The notes under the pieces were generated by a model. It was not told where the DNA came from, did no database searches, and worked only from the letters and a program-made list of their open reading frames with translations. A program made the position numbers and the translations under genes. DNA of 64,000 bases from an uncultured SAR86 cluster bacterium (GTDB lineage Bacteria > Pseudomonadota > Gammaproteobacteria > Magnimaribacterales > Magnimaribacteraceae): the NCBI GenBank assembly GCA_902542325.1, contig CACBUE010000003.1, forward strand, positions 1 to 64,000, written 5' to 3'. This document shows, piece by piece, positions 19,786-26,523 of the stretch (its first letter is position 1; the number at the start of each line of letters is the position of its first letter).

Positions 19786-19862
19786 CGGGGCGTGGCGCAG
19801 TCTGGTAGCGCACCACACTGGGGGTGTGGTGGTCGCTGGTTCAAATCCAGCCGTCCCGACCA
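19786..19862 (+). tRNA. tRNA-Pro (anticodon GGG)
   Basis: A complete cloverleaf of 77 bases. The acceptor stem CGGGGCG (19786-19792) pairs with CGTCCCG (19852-19858) with one G-U pair, followed by discriminator A and an encoded CCA. The anticodon stem CCACA/TGTGG encloses loop CTGGGGG, giving anticodon GGG at 19820-19822. The T arm contains GGTTCAAATCC. It reads CCC, and wobble extends it to CCU. It follows the MerR gene by one base. Confidence 0.98.
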
Positions 19863-19872
19863 TATTGAAAAA

Positions 19873-21066
19873 CTACTGGTTTAAAAGGATTACTTTCCCT
19901 TCTTCAGCCATTCTTTTTTGAGCTTCTTCAGTGACACCAAGACGATCAAGTATTTCTTTGCTATGTTCTCCTAATTTTGGTGCTGGTCTTTTTATTTTGC
20001 TTGGCGTGCCTTCAAATAAAGCTGCGGGCCTTGCTTGCCTGACTTCCCCAAATCCATCATATTTGTCCCTAAGAATTGTTTGATTGGCAATAATTTGTTC
20101 ATGATCCATTAATTCCATTCTGTCCAATAAAGGAGCGCTTGGCACACCTTCTGTTTGAAATCTATCTAATATTTCTTCGCTATCCCATTTTTTAATCTCT
20201 TCTCCTGTTATTTTTTTTCTTTCCTCTGAATTAATTACCCTGGCTGCAGAGGTGGCAAATCTTTCGTCTTCTATGAGATCTTCCATATTTAGTGCATTAC
20301 ACATTCCTTTCCATTCAGCATCCGAGACAGCTCCGGCAGTTATATATCTATCTTGTGCCTTATATATAAGATCTTGAGAGCCCTGCAACTTCCTAACATC
20401 GAATTCATTATCTTTAAAGACTAAACCCGTCATTCCTTCGGGCCAAAAGAAAGCAACAACGGAATCAAGCATAGAAAGTTTGATATGTTGGCCTCCAGAA
20501 TTTTTCTCTCTTGCATAGAGTGCTGATGAGACGGCTTGAGCGGCTGTTAAAGAGGTAACTTTATCTGCTATAACTATTCTGAACATTTTTGGTTCTCCAG
20601 AATTCCTATCGGCTTGAATATCTGTGGCACCTGACAAGGCTTGAATCACCGGATCATAAACTCTTGACTGCGCATATGGACCTTTATTACCGAAGCCACT
20701 TATTGAGAGGTATATTAAATTTGGATTTATTTTTTTCAATTCGTCATAACCAAAACCCATTCTATCTGTAGTTCCAGGTCTGAAGTTTTGCATGAATACA
20801 TCTGACTCTTTGATTAGTTTGATGAGTACTTCTTTTCCTTCTGCCGATTTAAGATCTATCGCTAAAGATTTTTTCCCTCTGTTACATGAATAAAAAGGCG
20901 CATTTACTCCATTATAAGGAGCAGCCATATACCTAAGCTGTTCGCCTCCTAGAGGTTCTACCTTTATGACTTCTGCTCCTTGATCGGCTAGGATCATGGC
21001 TCCCATCGGTCCAGAAATCATACTGGTCAAATCAATTATTTTTACTCCTTCTAGTGGTCCCGTCAT
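19873..21066 (-). CDS. CaiB/BaiF-type (family III) CoA transferase
   Basis: A 397-residue family III CoA transferase. The N-terminus GVKIIDLTSMISGPMGAMILADQGAEVIKVEP, then NRGKKSLAIDLKSAEG, VFMQNFRPGTTDRMGFGYD and IYLSISGFG are typical. The conserved Asp normally found after 'QA..G' is seen in IQALSGATDIQ. It moves CoA between carboxylic acids in the cytosol; the substrate is not evident. It overlaps the upstream GST gene by 4 bases on the minus strand, suggesting joint degradation of one compound. Confidence 0.92.
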   Translation of the reverse strand: MTGPLEGVKIIDLTSMISGPMGAMILADQGAEVIKVEPLGGEQLRYMAAPYNGVNAPFYSCNRGKKSLAIDLKSAEGKEVLIKLIKESDVFMQNFRPGTTDRMGFGYDELKKINPNLIYLSISGFGNKGPYAQSRVYDPVIQALSGATDIQADRNSGEPKMFRIVIADKVTSLTAAQAVSSALYAREKNSGGQHIKLSMLDSVVAFFWPEGMTGLVFKDNEFDVRKLQGSQDLIYKAQDRYITAGAVSDAEWKGMCNALNMEDLIEDERFATSAARVINSEERKKITGEEIKKWDSEEILDRFQTEGVPSAPLLDRMELMDHEQIIANQTILRDKYDGFGEVRQARPAALFEGTPSKIKRPAPKLGEHSKEILDRLGVTEEAQKRMAEEGKVILLNQ

Positions 21067-21698
21067 ATCTTTGTCTTATAGTTTATGTCAAAAGCAATTT
21101 TATATGCTTCTCTATCTCTAGCAGCTTCATGATACCTTGATACATTCAATGGTAAATTAAATTCATAAGCTTCTGCCCAATCTAGACATGTAGTGAGAAG
21201 AATGTCAGCTAAACCGAAGTCATAACCGAACAAAGAATCTTGATTACCTAAGATATTTTCTATAACGGCAAGATATTTTTCAAAATAGTTACGACAACTT
21301 TCAACTACTTTTGGTGAATCACCATATATATCTTTCAAGTCGAAGTGCCTCCTCATTACATACAAAGATGTTTCGTCTAATTCGCCATATATAAAATTGC
21401 ACCACTCGTCTTCCAGAGCCATAGTCTTATTATCTTGAGGTAAGAAAATATTTTTTGAATTACTAATTCTTTGAAGATATCTACATATAGCTACACTTTC
21501 TGACAAGAGGAAATCATCATGTTTGAGAAGAGGTATTTTTTGTTTTGCGTTGAGTTTTTTAAATTCTTTCGTTTGGGTCTCTCCAGTTCTTGGACCTATG
21601 GGAAAAAGTTTATATTTGAGACCTAATTCCTCAGCCATCCAGATGGGTCTGAGAGTTCTTGCCGTTCCTGATCCCCAAATTTCTAAATTTAAATTCAA
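21063..21698 (-). CDS. Glutathione S-transferase family protein
   Basis: A 211-residue protein with a thioredoxin-like N domain (WGSGTARTLRPIWMAEELGLKYKL, KIPLLKHDDFLLSESVAICRYL, where the cis-Pro and Ser-Glu bind glutathione) and an all-helical C domain with YDFGLADILLTTCLDWA. Ser/Thr in SGTAR is the likely catalytic residue. It is first in a two-gene minus-strand unit with the CoA transferase. Its upstream region holds the structured tandem units at 21843-21969. Confidence 0.9.
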   Translation of the reverse strand: MNLNLEIWGSGTARTLRPIWMAEELGLKYKLFPIGPRTGETQTKEFKKLNAKQKIPLLKHDDFLLSESVAICRYLQRISNSKNIFLPQDNKTMALEDEWCNFIYGELDETSLYVMRRHFDLKDIYGDSPKVVESCRNYFEKYLAVIENILGNQDSLFGYDFGLADILLTTCLDWAEAYEFNLPLNVSRYHEAARDREAYKIAFDINYKTKI

Positions 21699-21842
21699 AT
21701 TTATCTCCTAAAACTTTAATTTCATATTAGACGAATAATGAAGAAGAGGGAAATTCAAAGCAAAAGAAACTTAAAAATATATTTAATAATTTTTTTACTT
21801 TACTACTATACATATTATTTATATGTGTATATAATTGACATC

Positions 21843-21906
21843 AATATCTAGAGACGTTTAATTCTCCCCAGAAAAAAACCTCTCCAAGGTAAGCAATCTA
21901 GATATT
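21843..21906. repeat. Structured tandem unit 1 (possible ncRNA or cis-regulatory element)
   Basis: Perfect 10-bp arms AATATCTAGA (21843-21852) and TCTAGATATT (21897-21906) enclose a 42-base core (21851-21892) that starts GAGACGTTTAATTCTCCCC and ends CCTCTCCAAGGTAA. The core is repeated almost exactly in the next unit. The core itself can form two small hairpins, TTCT-CCCC-AGAA and ACCT-CTCCA-AGGT. Strand is unknown because the arms pair on either strand. Confidence 0.6.
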
Positions 21907-21912
21907 AAAAAT

Positions 21913-21969
21913 AACTGAGAGACGTTTAATTCTCCCCAGAAAAACCTCTCCAAGGTAACTCACTCAGTT
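21913..21969. repeat. Structured tandem unit 2 (same core, different arms)
   Basis: The 40-base core (21919-21958) matches unit 1 except for two fewer A in the central A run. The flanking arms have a different sequence but still pair: AACTGAG (21913-21919) with CTCAGTT (21963-21969). Conservation of pairing rather than sequence in the arms is the pattern expected of a folded RNA with a closing stem. It does not match a riboswitch class that I recognise. Confidence 0.6.
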
Positions 21970-21974
21970 TATAA

Positions 21975-22034
21975 AGTAAGATGTAGCTGTCACCCATTTT
22001 AGCTGCACTAGCAAAAATCAAGCTACATCTTACT
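21975..22034. repeat. 14-bp inverted repeat / stem-loop upstream of thioesterase
   Basis: AGTAAGATGTAGCT (21975-21988) is the exact reverse complement of AGCTACATCTTACT (22021-22034). The 32-base interior contains a smaller hairpin (TTTT-A-GCT / AGC-AAAA around a 5-base loop). No T tract follows, so it is not a standard terminator on the plus strand. It comes 6 bases after unit 2, making three consecutive closed stems. Confidence 0.6.
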
Positions 22035-22134
22035 ATCTATGGTAGGTGGGGCTTTAAAATTAATTTTTGGTTGGGCGCAGCAAAAAGTTTCATCTACCAC
22101 CCTTACTTTAAGTCAATCGGCTAAAATACCCCTT

Positions 22135-22551
22135 ATGGATGATCTTCAAATATTGGAATTTTTTAATTCTAGAACTGCACCATGCACTGATACCTTAGGC
22201 GCCAGAGTTATAAGTTTTTGCTCCGAACCTCCTTCAATAGAGATGGAATTTCAGGCTATTTATGATTTTACACATTCTGATGGTCAAGTAGTTCAAGGTG
22301 GTTTTGTTACAGGAATGTTAGATGCACCTATGGCTCATTTATTGATGGGACTATTTGATTTTAAGATTATTCCTATGACATTAGATATAAATGTCAGCTT
22401 TTTAGCCCCTACGAGACAAGGAAAACTAGTTGCTTCGGCAGAAGTTCTTCAATTAGGAAAAAGCACTGCTTTCATGACAAGTAAACTCAAACAAGAGGGG
22501 AATCTTGTAGCTAGTTCTACTTCTACAGTGCGATTAGTTCAGGCTAAATAA
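22135..22551 (+). CDS. PaaI/hotdog-fold thioesterase
   Basis: A protein of about 138 residues from ATG 22135 (MDDLQILEFFNSRTAP). The hotdog pattern includes YDFTHSDGQVVQGGFVTGMLDAPMAHLLMG, where the Asn/Gln-x-x-Gly helix of PaaI thioesterases sits, and DINVSFLAPTRQGKLVASAEVLQLGKSTAFMTSKL. It would hydrolyse an acyl-CoA thioester. The frame is open to ATG 22039, but the extra 32 residues look non-conserved and lie beside the stem-loop. No Shine-Dalgarno is visible for either start. Confidence 0.8.
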   Translation: MDDLQILEFFNSRTAPCTDTLGARVISFCSEPPSIEMEFQAIYDFTHSDGQVVQGGFVTGMLDAPMAHLLMGLFDFKIIPMTLDINVSFLAPTRQGKLVASAEVLQLGKSTAFMTSKLKQEGNLVASSTSTVRLVQAK

Positions 22552-22555
22552 TTAG

Positions 22556-23773
22556 CTAAACTCCAAAATCCCATGAAAGGCCATCATGATATCTATTTAA
22601 GATTTCTTTAGCTATTAAGATTCTATGAACTTCATCTGGTCCATCGGCTAGCCTCAATGTTCTGAAACCTTGATACATTCCCGCTAATGGAGTGTCGCTA
22701 GATACTCCTCTCCAGCCATGCATTTGAATAGCTCTATCAACAACTCTAGTTCCAGCTGCAGGTACAAATACTTTGATAGCTGAAATATCTACTCTTGCAT
22801 CACCTTCTTTATCCATAATCTCTGAACAGTGAATTGTCATTAGTCTTGATGCCTGAATATCCATATATGAGTCAGCAATGAATCCTTGAATGAATTGTTT
22901 TGTTTCTAATTTTCCTCCATGAACTTCTCTTTCAGTTGCATATTTAACCATTATGTCAAATGCCCTCCACATCTGTCCTATAGTATTCATACAGTGATAA
23001 ACTCTTCCTGCACCCAATCTATCTTGTGCGGCTTGGTGGCCTGAACCTCTTGCGCCTAGAGCATTTTCAAGTGGTACTCTTACATTTTCATACTTTATTT
23101 CCATATGATCTCCGCCAGTATGGCCCCATATTGGAACTGATCTTACTTTCGTTAGTCCTGGAGAATCTGTAGGTACAATTATTTGAGTCATTTTAGAATT
23201 AGCTCCACCTTCATCTCCATCTTCTTCGGTCTTGCACATGACAACTAAGAAATCGGCTCTGTTACCATTCGAGGTCATAATTTTATGACCATTGATTACC
23301 CATTCGTCTCCTTCCTTAACGGCCGTTGTTTTAAGTGACCTTGGATCGGATCCCGCTGAATCAGGCTCTGTCATTGAAAAACCAGACTCCATCTCTTGAT
23401 TAATTAATGGAATAAGCCATTTTTTCTTTTGTTCGTCTGTTCCATATTTAACAAGAATTTTTTGATTACCAGAATTAGGTGCGATTACTCCAAAGAGTCT
23501 ATTACCTAATGGAGACCAAGCAAGAATTTCATTCATATAAGCTAGCTCTAGAAAGCCATTATCCATTCCACCGTATTCAGAAGGAAGATGAGGAGCCCAC
23601 AAGCCCTGTTTCTTTACTTCTTCATTAATTTCTTTTCTTAGTTTTTTAGATTTATCTCCACCGGCATAAATGGTTGCTTCGTTAGGAATAATTCTATTTG
23701 CAACTATATCAGCTGTTCTTAGACGTATATCGTTGATCTCTTCGGAAAGAGTTGGTATTGGTGATATTTGCAT
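22556..23773 (-). CDS. Acyl-CoA dehydrogenase
   Basis: A 405-residue flavoprotein. GFSMTEPDSAGSDPRSLKTTAV and WVINGHKIMTSNGNRADF form the FAD/substrate half, DRLGAGRVYHCMNTIGQMWRAFDIM the central helices, and IQMHGWRGVSSDTPLAGMYQGFRTLRLADGPDEVHRI the C-terminal FAD contacts. The position usually holding the catalytic Glu reads as ADGPDEVH, as in the ACAD10/11-like group. It introduces an alpha-beta double bond in an acyl-CoA. Convergent with the thioesterase, 4 bases apart. Confidence 0.93.
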   Translation of the reverse strand: MQISPIPTLSEEINDIRLRTADIVANRIIPNEATIYAGGDKSKKLRKEINEEVKKQGLWAPHLPSEYGGMDNGFLELAYMNEILAWSPLGNRLFGVIAPNSGNQKILVKYGTDEQKKKWLIPLINQEMESGFSMTEPDSAGSDPRSLKTTAVKEGDEWVINGHKIMTSNGNRADFLVVMCKTEEDGDEGGANSKMTQIIVPTDSPGLTKVRSVPIWGHTGGDHMEIKYENVRVPLENALGARGSGHQAAQDRLGAGRVYHCMNTIGQMWRAFDIMVKYATEREVHGGKLETKQFIQGFIADSYMDIQASRLMTIHCSEIMDKEGDARVDISAIKVFVPAAGTRVVDRAIQMHGWRGVSSDTPLAGMYQGFRTLRLADGPDEVHRILIAKEILNRYHDGLSWDFGV

Positions 23774-24636: not shown

Positions 24637-24657
24637 ATTAAAAAATTAGGGGAGAAA

Positions 24658-26523
24658 ATGAAAAAAATAATGGCCATAGGATGCTTCTTGGCTCTCATTA
24701 ACGGATGTGGAAGCACAAATGAAGAAGACTTACTTAGAAATATTACGCAGGGACAATTGATAGGCGTAGAAGCCAATAATAATACATATGCATGGAAAGG
24801 AATTCCTTTTGCGCAACCTCCATTAGAGGAATTAAGATGGAAGGCTCCCTTAGCTCCATTGAATTTTGATTCAATATTTGATGCCTCAAAATTTGCTGAC
24901 ATATGTTTTCAAAGAGATGGGGTGATGACTGGAAATGAAGGCGGATGGTCAGGATCAGAGGATTGTTTGTATCTGAATGTCTGGACACCCGATTGGTCTG
25001 CAGAAGATGTAAAAAGTCAAAAAGCGCCAGTAATGATGTGGATACATGGAGGAGGAAATACCATTGGTTCTGCTGACACATATGATCCATCTCATATTGT
25101 CTCAGAACATAATGTAATCGTAGTTACAGTTCAGTACAGGATGTCTAATTTGGGGTGGTTTAGGCATCCTGTACTCAGACAAGAAAATTCTTCTGAAGAG
25201 GATAAATCAGGTAATTTTGGGACCTTAGATAACATAATGGCCCTTAAATGGATAAGCGAAAATATTGAAAATTTTGGAGGAGATCGAGATAACATAACAA
25301 TTTATGGTGAGTCAGCTGGTGGTCATAATGTAGCAGCACTATATGCCTCTCCCATAGCAGAGGGCTTATTTCATAAGGCTATTGTTCAAAGTGGGATACT
25401 CTCTCATTCTTCAATAAATGATGCTGAGTCTTACTATCCAGAGAGTGGTATTTCTGGAATACAAAGTTCTAAAGAAGTAATCAATAGACTTATGTTAAGT
25501 GATGGCACTGTTGATAGTCTAGAAGAAGGCAGGGTTAAACAGGACTCAATGGATTTAAAGGATCTAGAAAGTTATTTAAGAGCCAAATCACCAGAAGAGC
25601 TATTAATAGCTTATTCGGATGCGAGACCAAAAAAAGGTGGTATGACGAGAGCTTTTAATGATGGTTATGTAATAAGAAAAGAAGGTATTTATGAAACTTT
25701 TGTAAATAATAAGCTTCCAAGAGTACCCATTATGCTCGGTACAACCAGGTATGAAACCAAATTATTCAATATGCGAAATCCTGACTTTGTTAAATGGGGA
25801 GAAGGAGAGGGCTTTATCGCTAGAACGCTTTCGCAATTTGGTATTGATGAGCTTCCGTTAGAGATATTAAGACCAGATTATTACAATGCAATAAATCAAT
25901 ACGCATCTGATTCATGGAAAGAGAGAGCAGTTGATTCTCCGTCACGAGATCTTATAAATACGGGTTATAAAAGTACTTTTGCTTATAGATTTGATTGGGA
26001 TGAGTTACCAAATGTTTTAGGTATGGATTTCGCAGAACTCATTGGATCAGCTCATGCCATGGAATTATTGTTTCTATTTCCTGCCGGACTAGAAAATATA
26101 ATAGTTAAAAATTTGGTTATCGAAGATCAAGAAAGTGTAACCAAATTATCTGATCAGATGATGTCATATTGGGCAGAGTTTGCTTACTCTGGAAAACCAG
26201 GCAAGGGAAGGTCAAATGATTTACCTGAGTGGACTGCATGGTCAGATCAGGGCAAATATATGATTTTGGATTCTGAGTTAGACCAAGGCCTAATCATGTC
26301 AAATGACGAAATTACTAAAAGTTCGATTGTAAGTAATTTAGAAAAGGATACTCGATTAACTTTAGTAGAGAAGTGTGAATCACTTTTTGCACTCACCTAC
26401 GGAGAAGATTTACCACAGGAAACATTCGATGGTTTTAGTGACGGGTATTGTTTATCATTGGATTATTCAGAGTTACTTAAAAGGATTGAAAATAGAGGAG
26501 AAGATGATGACCAAGAAAGTTGA
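24658..26523 (+). CDS. Lipoprotein carboxylesterase (type B family)
   Basis: A 621-residue type B carboxylesterase with a lipoprotein signal peptide (MKKIMAIGCFLALINGC, lipidated at Cys17), so probably periplasmic or outer-membrane bound. YAWKGIPFAQPPLEELRWKAP, SEDCLYLNVW, the oxyanion loop MMWIHGGGN, and ITIYGESAGGHNV with the nucleophilic serine are all canonical; GSAHAMELLFLF carries the histidine. It would hydrolyse esters outside the cytoplasm. GGGGAG at 24650-24655 is the Shine-Dalgarno. The next gene starts inside its last 17 bases. Confidence 0.92.
   Translation: MKKIMAIGCFLALINGCGSTNEEDLLRNITQGQLIGVEANNNTYAWKGIPFAQPPLEELRWKAPLAPLNFDSIFDASKFADICFQRDGVMTGNEGGWSGSEDCLYLNVWTPDWSAEDVKSQKAPVMMWIHGGGNTIGSADTYDPSHIVSEHNVIVVTVQYRMSNLGWFRHPVLRQENSSEEDKSGNFGTLDNIMALKWISENIENFGGDRDNITIYGESAGGHNVAALYASPIAEGLFHKAIVQSGILSHSSINDAESYYPESGISGIQSSKEVINRLMLSDGTVDSLEEGRVKQDSMDLKDLESYLRAKSPEELLIAYSDARPKKGGMTRAFNDGYVIRKEGIYETFVNNKLPRVPIMLGTTRYETKLFNMRNPDFVKWGEGEGFIARTLSQFGIDELPLEILRPDYYNAINQYASDSWKERAVDSPSRDLINTGYKSTFAYRFDWDELPNVLGMDFAELIGSAHAMELLFLFPAGLENIIVKNLVIEDQESVTKLSDQMMSYWAEFAYSGKPGKGRSNDLPEWTAWSDQGKYMILDSELDQGLIMSNDEITKSSIVSNLEKDTRLTLVEKCESLFALTYGEDLPQETFDGFSDGYCLSLDYSELLKRIENRGEDDDQES

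Follow-up and report, generated by a model that had tools for sequence, protein, structure and literature searches.

The plus strand of the window (the whole stretch of 64,000 nucleotides that was analysed) carries, at 21843 to about 22105, a conserved element composed of unit 1, unit 2 and two hairpins, H3 and H4, behind a conserved promoter. As judged from sequence comparison, the element is with moderate confidence a stand-alone non-coding RNA gene of about 262 nt, the product of which would be a C-rich-loop sRNA of SAR86 acting in trans; the RNA is probably untranslated. SAR86 bacteria are abundant in the ocean, have small genomes and are for the most part uncultured. The RNA would be a new regulator in this abundant, poorly studied marine bacterial group, and one gene illustrating a pairing module that is present once or twice. 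No described SAR86 small RNA was found among the titles and abstract openings returned by a full-text search of one literature collection.

Architecture and covariation of the element

Alignment of 20 loci from the window's own family (f1; 18 loci complete) demonstrated one conserved block leading from the promoter through the units, H3 and H4 to a T-rich stretch (Table 1), with unit 1 beginning 8 nt past the -10 box; past about 22105 conservation falls or the adjoining gene changes. The first-pass annotation had delimited the feature as 21843-22034, and its units and 14-bp stem were found again, but those limits are too short, the conservation extending from 21807 to about 22105 and including a fourth hairpin of 16 bp. 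Both promoter boxes are recognisable by eye in 19 of the 20 aligned loci, the remaining one being cut by a contig end. A consensus scan of 700 bases returned 5 promoter-like sites as compared with 2.7 in shuffles, so that the scan by itself is weak. At the loci of the second family (f2; L100-L102, L115-L122 and others), two TATAAC boxes about 22-32 nt apart were seen by eye before the -10 region, directly after the upstream gene and before the photolyase, and this pair is a possible regulator site.

Table 1. Features of the predicted RNA gene in the window
Feature	Coordinates	Strand	Description
Promoter TATACA-17-TATAAT	21807..21835	+	10/12 consensus matches; putative start site ~21842
Unit 1	21843..21906	+	Closing stem P1; P2 21862-21873; P3 21878-21890; found by model R1
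Unit 2	21913..21969	+	Fold as unit 1; P2 21930-21941; P3 21944-21956; found by model R1
H3	21975..22034	+	14-bp stem; side segment CACCCA; small top stem; 6/14 pairs changed on both sides
H4	22040..22099	+	16-bp stem; cap GUUG-GGCG-CAGC 22070-22081; 6/16 pairs with two-sided changes; 99% of cells paired
T-rich stretch after H4	22100..22110	+	Putative 3' end; weak in several relatives

The tandem units with differing but perfectly pairing arms, as described in the first-pass annotation, are indeed present. The arms of unit 1 at 21843-21852 and 21897-21906 (AATATCTAGA/TCTAGATATT) form 10 perfect bp, the P1 arms of unit 2 at 21913-21919 and 21963-21969 (AACTGAG/CTCAGTT) form 7, and the cores contain an exact direct repeat of 27 nt (21850-21876 and 21918-21944), which at up to 3 mismatches occurs 2 times in the window as against none in 100 shuffles. 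The RNA folding z-score is -3.6 for unit 1 and -1.0 for unit 2, 33 of 200 shuffles of the latter folding at least as well. Inside the closing stem P1, the f1 units carry the P2 hairpin UUCU-CCCC-AGAA and the P3 hairpin ACCU-CUCCA-AGGU. By eye, f2 lacks P3 and genus g9 lacks P2; the constant core is P1 together with UCUCCC and CUCUCC or CCUCC. Two units are found in genera g1, g4 and g6, and one unit in six genera belonging to both families, namely g2 and g7 of f1 and g8, g9, g10 and g11 of f2. The tandem arrangement is therefore not required and, to judge from its distribution, is probably a later duplication.

The arms of H3 (21975-21988 and 22021-22034) form the third stem of 14 perfect bp that had been noticed earlier, with a folding z-score of -5.2; the corresponding hairpin of genus g11 is followed by seven T (T7) and resembles an intrinsic terminator. 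The top of H4, GUUGGGCGCAGC, does not vary among the 18 rows of the f1 alignment, and UUGGGCG in its cap is nearly invariant. Genus g10 is without H4 and has one unit followed by a terminator hairpin that is T-rich to a varying degree. H4 and the T-rich stretch trailing it are the probable end of the transcript.

By almost all measures, covariation exceeds that of the two controls. In the MAFFT alignment A2 (36 units, 35 of them distinct), 89.1% of the cells pair as compared with 81.5% in shuffles, and 10 of the 15 P1 pairs are changed on both sides; the number of two-sided pairs was reached by 24 of 500 shuffles, and the number of further pair types did not rise above the shuffles (338 of 500 reached it). 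The H3/H4 alignment A3 (18 rows) has 96.8% of its cells paired and 13 of 38 pairs with two-sided changes, none of the shuffles reached any of the five measures, and sliding the partner by 1-3 columns brought the pairing down to 33-51%. In alignment A8, covering both families with 19 rows, 13 of the 15 P1 pairs show two-sided changes, the pair counts here leaning to structure because the alignment was fitted to R1. Alignments A1-A3 were made without two loci cut by contig ends (L007 and L015), and A4, A5, A6 (P1 out of register) and A7 (chance matches) were excluded from all counts. The stems P2 and P3 show next to no variation, and covariation is accordingly no proof of them. These pair statistics bear out the earlier proposal of a structured RNA with covarying stems.

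The minus-strand reading also folds well and was rejected on account of the G.U pairs, which fit the plus strand. Among the non-Watson-Crick cells there are 115 G.U, 3 A.C and 19 others in H3/H4, 28 G.U, 14 A.C and 75 others in A2, and 14, 4 and 29, respectively, in A8; since G.U pairs become mismatches on the other strand, the RNA is placed on the plus strand. By this asymmetry of G.U and A.C cells and by the gene context, a riboswitch for the GST/CoA-transferase unit on the opposite strand, to which the first-pass annotation had pointed, is rejected.

Distribution and gene context

Three covariance models, representing the unit (R1), H3-H4 (R2) and the units of both families (R3), were run on 203 genomes of the order, presence being taken as an R2 match with E <=1e-4 or an R3 match with E <=0.02 that, on reading, has the same surroundings. 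The RNA occurs in 62 of the 203 genomes, comprising 26 of 35 in f1 and 36 of 40 in f2; the 13 genomes of these families without a match are assemblies that are 63-94% complete. Strong blastn matches (E <1e-17) were obtained in 21 of the 35 f1 genomes. Families f3 (107 genomes) and f4 (21 genomes) gave only weak R1, R2 or R3 matches, in 11 genomes; promoter and H4 were absent by eye in the six that were read (G095, G182, G184, G201, G116 and G108), which are not this RNA; the remaining weak matches are those of G112, G118, G148, G168 and G181, together with those of G022 and G030 in f1. One of the six (L151 in G108 of f3, contig positions 30799-30857, R3, 23.5 bits) lies, by eye, seemingly before a GST-like frame that recalls the GST neighbour in the window; H3 and H4 were not seen there.

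In a draw of 369 genomes, which is part of the class and whose filters can miss weak relatives, R3 gave 3 matches, one in the own genome, one in a genome of f2 and a false positive in the GC-rich genome G536, where it falls within a coding frame. The H4-loop pattern retrieved 17 stretches from a species-genome collection, all from assemblies named SAR86 cluster or Gammaproteobacteria bacterium, and had no match in a viral contig collection. On present sampling, the RNA belongs to two families of SAR86.

The palindromic arms and the direct repeat could also belong to a DNA-level repeat or a chance palindrome that is not transcribed, and the first-pass annotation had named dispersal over the genome as the observation that would speak for a mobile repeat. 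The own assembly (1.3 Mb, 38 contigs, 89% complete) contains a single strong place for a 200-nt query, the second match being a 23-base piece with E 0.42; the element is therefore not a dispersed repeat. Nearly every genome bearing the RNA likewise has one strong locus, while G008 has two identical matches on two contigs. With the covariation, the strand-specific G.U pairs and the conserved promoter also opposing it, the probability of a mere DNA-level feature is close to negligible. A mobile palindrome was rejected on the single place in the own genome together with the result from the viral contigs.

Frames were called around 20 loci (17 stretches of f1 and three of f2). Downstream, a thioesterase-like frame followed by an opposite-strand acyl-CoA dehydrogenase is found in 18 of the 20 stretches, and G027 and G028 have a polysaccharide-type cluster instead; upstream, the pheT-ihfA-merR side lies within the stretch in 12 (11 of f1 and G067 of f2). 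These common flanks suggest that the f1 and f2 copies are orthologous. The thioesterase, GST, CoA-transferase III, acyl-CoA dehydrogenase and MerR of the window were identified by Pfam, as was the photolyase of G037; the remaining gene names were given by eye.

The genes directly adjoining the RNA differ between genomes. Upstream they are a tRNA (Rfam; proline by eye), the GST/CoA transferase on the other strand or others, and downstream a thioesterase, a 469-aa frame (G029), a 305-aa frame (G023), the cluster of G027 and G028, a dehydrogenase-like frame (G016) or a photolyase (the three f2 stretches). In G001-G004 an opposite-strand frame of 515 aa ends 192-197 nt after the RNA start, i.e. 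right at the RNA end. The f1 interval corresponding to 19786-22600 of the window is one of changing gene insertions on both sides of the RNA, represented by the polysaccharide-type cluster (G027, G028), an integrase-like frame (G016, by eye) and the GST/CoA transferase (g1). The longest thioesterase frame of the window (22039-22551) opens with an ATG that lies at the foot of H4; relatives differ in length between 22039 and 22135 and have their start where 22135 lies (MDD/MND). An automatic annotation from ATG 22039 would overlap the RNA.

The first-pass annotation had placed the region before a thioesterase gene and had likened the tandem copies to cooperative riboswitches such as that for glycine. 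A tandem metabolite riboswitch, or some other leader controlling the thioesterase, would agree with the aptamer-like units, with the likely thioesterase start at 22135 only 36 nt past H4 and with a thioesterase-like frame coming next on the plus strand in 8 of the 17 f1 stretches, to which the alignment adds 7 more f1 loci. Such a leader nevertheless has very little probability, as another gene stands downstream in G023, G027, G028, G029 and G016, only a single unit is carried by the six genera mentioned above, the RNA keeps its own promoter even where the neighbours change, and the convergent gene in G001-G004 already refutes it as a general explanation. Since the immediate neighbours vary and are on the opposite strand in these four genomes, a cis switch is excluded as the general function, and the inconstant next gene argues for a stand-alone RNA and not a riboswitch. 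Both the glycine-like interpretation and a riboswitch for the thioesterase gene are thus abandoned.

The position in f2 deserves separate consideration, because the RNA lies there directly before a photolyase-like gene (by eye in the f2 loci read), making a leader role possible, and it may in that family also be part of a leader. Taken further, the f2 RNA could be a sensing, attenuating photolyase leader consisting of unit, terminator H3, H4 and start codon, which f1 would have kept without that neighbour. The photolyase-like frames following at once and the T7-ending hairpin of g11, situated before H4 and the start codon, are consistent with this, but f1 retains promoter, unit and H4 with no photolyase adjoining and in g10 it is the terminator hairpin that closes the RNA, so that the photolyase leader appears improbable.

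C-rich loops and candidate targets

Two motifs resembling anti-Shine-Dalgarno sequences, UCUCCC and CUCUCC/CCUCC, are present in every genus of f1 and f2 that bears the RNA, partly as read by eye, the regular expression having missed them in g2 (2 of 4) and g11 (10 of 10). Exceptions are unit 1 of L018 and of L020, in which the second motif is altered, and unit 1 of L019, which has UCUGCCC. UCUCCC(C) is complementary to GGGGAGA, and CUCUCC to GGAGAG.

The same loops, together with UUGGGC, which is near invariant outside g10 (pattern search; g2 and g11 by eye), could alternatively serve as protein or tertiary contacts, e.g. of CCCA with UGGG of H4, in a structural or protein-binding RNA such as a sponge or a ribonucleoprotein scaffold. 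In line with such contacts, parts of the loop and of H4 could pair over 4-6 nt (by eye); yet g10 keeps both C-rich motifs although it has no H4, G004 has UUAGGC with no matching change in the loop, and the window RNA contains no GGA (by eye), so that it is not a CsrA sponge. A purely structural role is accordingly regarded as decidedly improbable.

According to the preferred reading of a trans-acting sRNA, the loops would pair with the purine-rich Shine-Dalgarno (SD) sequences of mRNAs and so block ribosome entry, a second module would add a second pair of seeds, and H3/H4 would protect and end the RNA. The action would be in trans and without Hfq. The likeliest targets, proposed with low confidence, would be mRNAs of outer-membrane and secreted proteins, i.e. 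TonB-dependent receptors, DUF3604 proteins and an esterase.

In each of the five genomes inspected, GGGGAGA was 1.7-3.9 times as frequent 2-14 nt before ATG as the reversed sequence used for control (24 vs 14, 30 vs 12, 39 vs 10, 37 vs 18 and 14 vs 6), and GGAGAG 3-14 nt before ATG was 1.7-2.2 times commoner than its control in five genomes (164 vs 83, 148 vs 70, 158 vs 94, 174 vs 78 and 112 vs 55). On visual inspection, 13 of the 36 GGGGAGA sites of G029 pass as convincing starts of genes, defined by a long frame and an in-frame stop upstream, and the others are intragenic or unclear. Ten of the starts were assigned by Pfam to four TonB-dependent receptors, two DUF3604 proteins, an esterase, a beta-lactamase-fold hydrolase, a short-chain dehydrogenase and cytochrome oxidase subunit III. 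As raw lengths with G.U counted, the longest runs of continuous complementarity comprise 16 pairs at a DUF3604 start, 13 at a TonB receptor and 12 at the hydrolase. Two DUF3604 genes of G029 (L240 and L239) have GGGGAGA ribosome-binding sites, and it is one of these that forms the 16 continuous pairs with the unit loop. The esterase start with GGGGAGAAAATG is also found in the window, at 24649-24660.

A Plug-domain search of G029 detected 19 TonB receptors, of which 18 were used, with start codons picked by eye; L271 was omitted, as no start lies between the upstream stop and the match. GGGG is present in the SD window of 10 of these 18 receptors, the receptor idea itself having come from four of the 18. 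A 400-kb sample of other genes gave 12 of 378 (p 1e-9), with any ATG in the first 30 codons accepted, which favours these genes over the receptors, and the genes of the window gave 3 of 54. GGGGAG distinguishes them as well (6/18 vs 2/378, p 1e-7), and plain GGAG is also enriched (12/18 vs 61/378, p 5e-6), while AGGAG makes no difference (3/18 vs 32/378). Duplex energies likewise prefer the TonB receptor starts, with p 2e-7 for the loop, 1e-6 for the reversed loop and 1e-5 for the 16S tail, and with 0.005 and 0.046 for two of five letter shuffles and 0.05 to 0.66 for the others; since the reversed loop and the 16S tail score much alike, the duplex test shows no specificity. Strong SD sequences may explain much of the receptor preference. 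In the f2 genome G040, GGGG precedes 1 of 4 sampled TonB receptors and 6 of 357 other genes, and in the f3 genome G135, in which the RNA was not found, 0 of 5 receptors, five genes being too few, and 22 of 768 others. Because the controls and the counts of G040 and G135 go against a specific regulon, TonB receptors as targets are put forward as no more than a lead.

It may be speculated that an Hfq-independent SAR86 master sRNA sets the levels of TonB receptors and secreted hydrolases by masking an acquired ribosome-binding site of the GGGGAG type, with the module number as an evolving dose and a link to light through the photolyase position in one family; as a whole this scheme is rather doubtful. 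A conserved anti-SD-loop RNA in a gammaproteobacterium without recognisable Hfq would allow existing metatranscriptomes to be used for testing whether nutrient receptors are under riboregulation.

Comparison with known RNAs

A cmscan of the whole Rfam library against the window and 8 relatives yielded only tRNA at the gathering score, and at E up to 10 the region 21690-22140 gave two unrelated low scores, in agreement with the first reading that the core fits no recognised class. The novelty is meant with respect to Rfam; Weinberg et al. 2010 (PMC2864571) list marine motifs that have no Rfam entry, such as Ocean-VI, and from the main text of that paper the words SAR86, photolyase and thioesterase are absent. 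The Hfq model (PF17209) had no match in any of five SAR86 genomes (G000, G029, G016, G023 and G025) and matched 5 of the 14 genomes used as controls, with E. coli among the five.

Several known RNAs were rejected as identities of the element. 6S RNA is found elsewhere in 5 of 5 genomes, and tmRNA is over the cut-off elsewhere in 4 of 5, G025 being below it. For an RNA of the CsrB/RsmZ type the window RNA has no GGA, some relatives having GGA within a stem. The 6C RNA model gave no match, the loops CCCC and CUCCA differ from the CCUCCUCCC of the Alphaproteobacterial family, and for glycine or other known riboswitches neither an Rfam match nor a conserved downstream gene is present. With the glycine riboswitch the SAR86 RNA shares two similar units in tandem, but it has no fixed regulated gene and no Rfam match, and single-unit relatives exist.

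As in C-rich-loop sRNAs, the f1 and f2 loops are complementary to the SD sequence, and the RNA appears to be a stand-alone gene with its own promoter and no fixed cis target. Alphaproteobacterial sRNAs with CCUCCUCCC loops include RFMSmelA075/099 of Rhizobiales and RS0680a of Rhodobacter, the hairpin number of which varies (PMC3927594). Anti-SD hairpin loops, changeable stems and a variable number of hairpin modules are common to them and the SAR86 RNA; however, they carry CCUCCUCCC in each loop and occur in several copies per genome, whereas the SAR86 RNA combines UCUCCC and CUCUCC in one unit at one locus, has the added H3/H4 domain and matches no Rfam model. RFMSmelA075/099 and RS0680a are presumably the alpha-r14 and CcsR RNAs. 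The latter are said to interact with Hfq (PMC8307010), in contrast to the five SAR86 genomes without detectable Hfq.

The loops of the mycobacterial sRNA 6C/B11 are runs of C. In PMC10470900 its two C-rich loops are proposed to bind a G-tract in the 5' UTR, and its chaperone independence is given by the title of a paper cited there; C-rich loops and, by that title, the lack of an RNA chaperone would thus be shared, although 6C/B11 is a system of Actinobacteria and the SAR86 locus matches no Rfam model. RNAIII and RsaA are Gram-positive RNAs with another architecture than the SAR86 RNA. Both belong to the C-rich-loop sRNAs of S. aureus (PMC3961350; RNAIII also in PMC3927594), and C-rich segments covering SD sequences would be common to them and the SAR86 RNA. 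While by loop sequence and Rfam model it is a member of neither group, the SAR86 RNA would by analogy be similar in working to the CCUCCUCCC-loop sRNAs and to 6C/B11.
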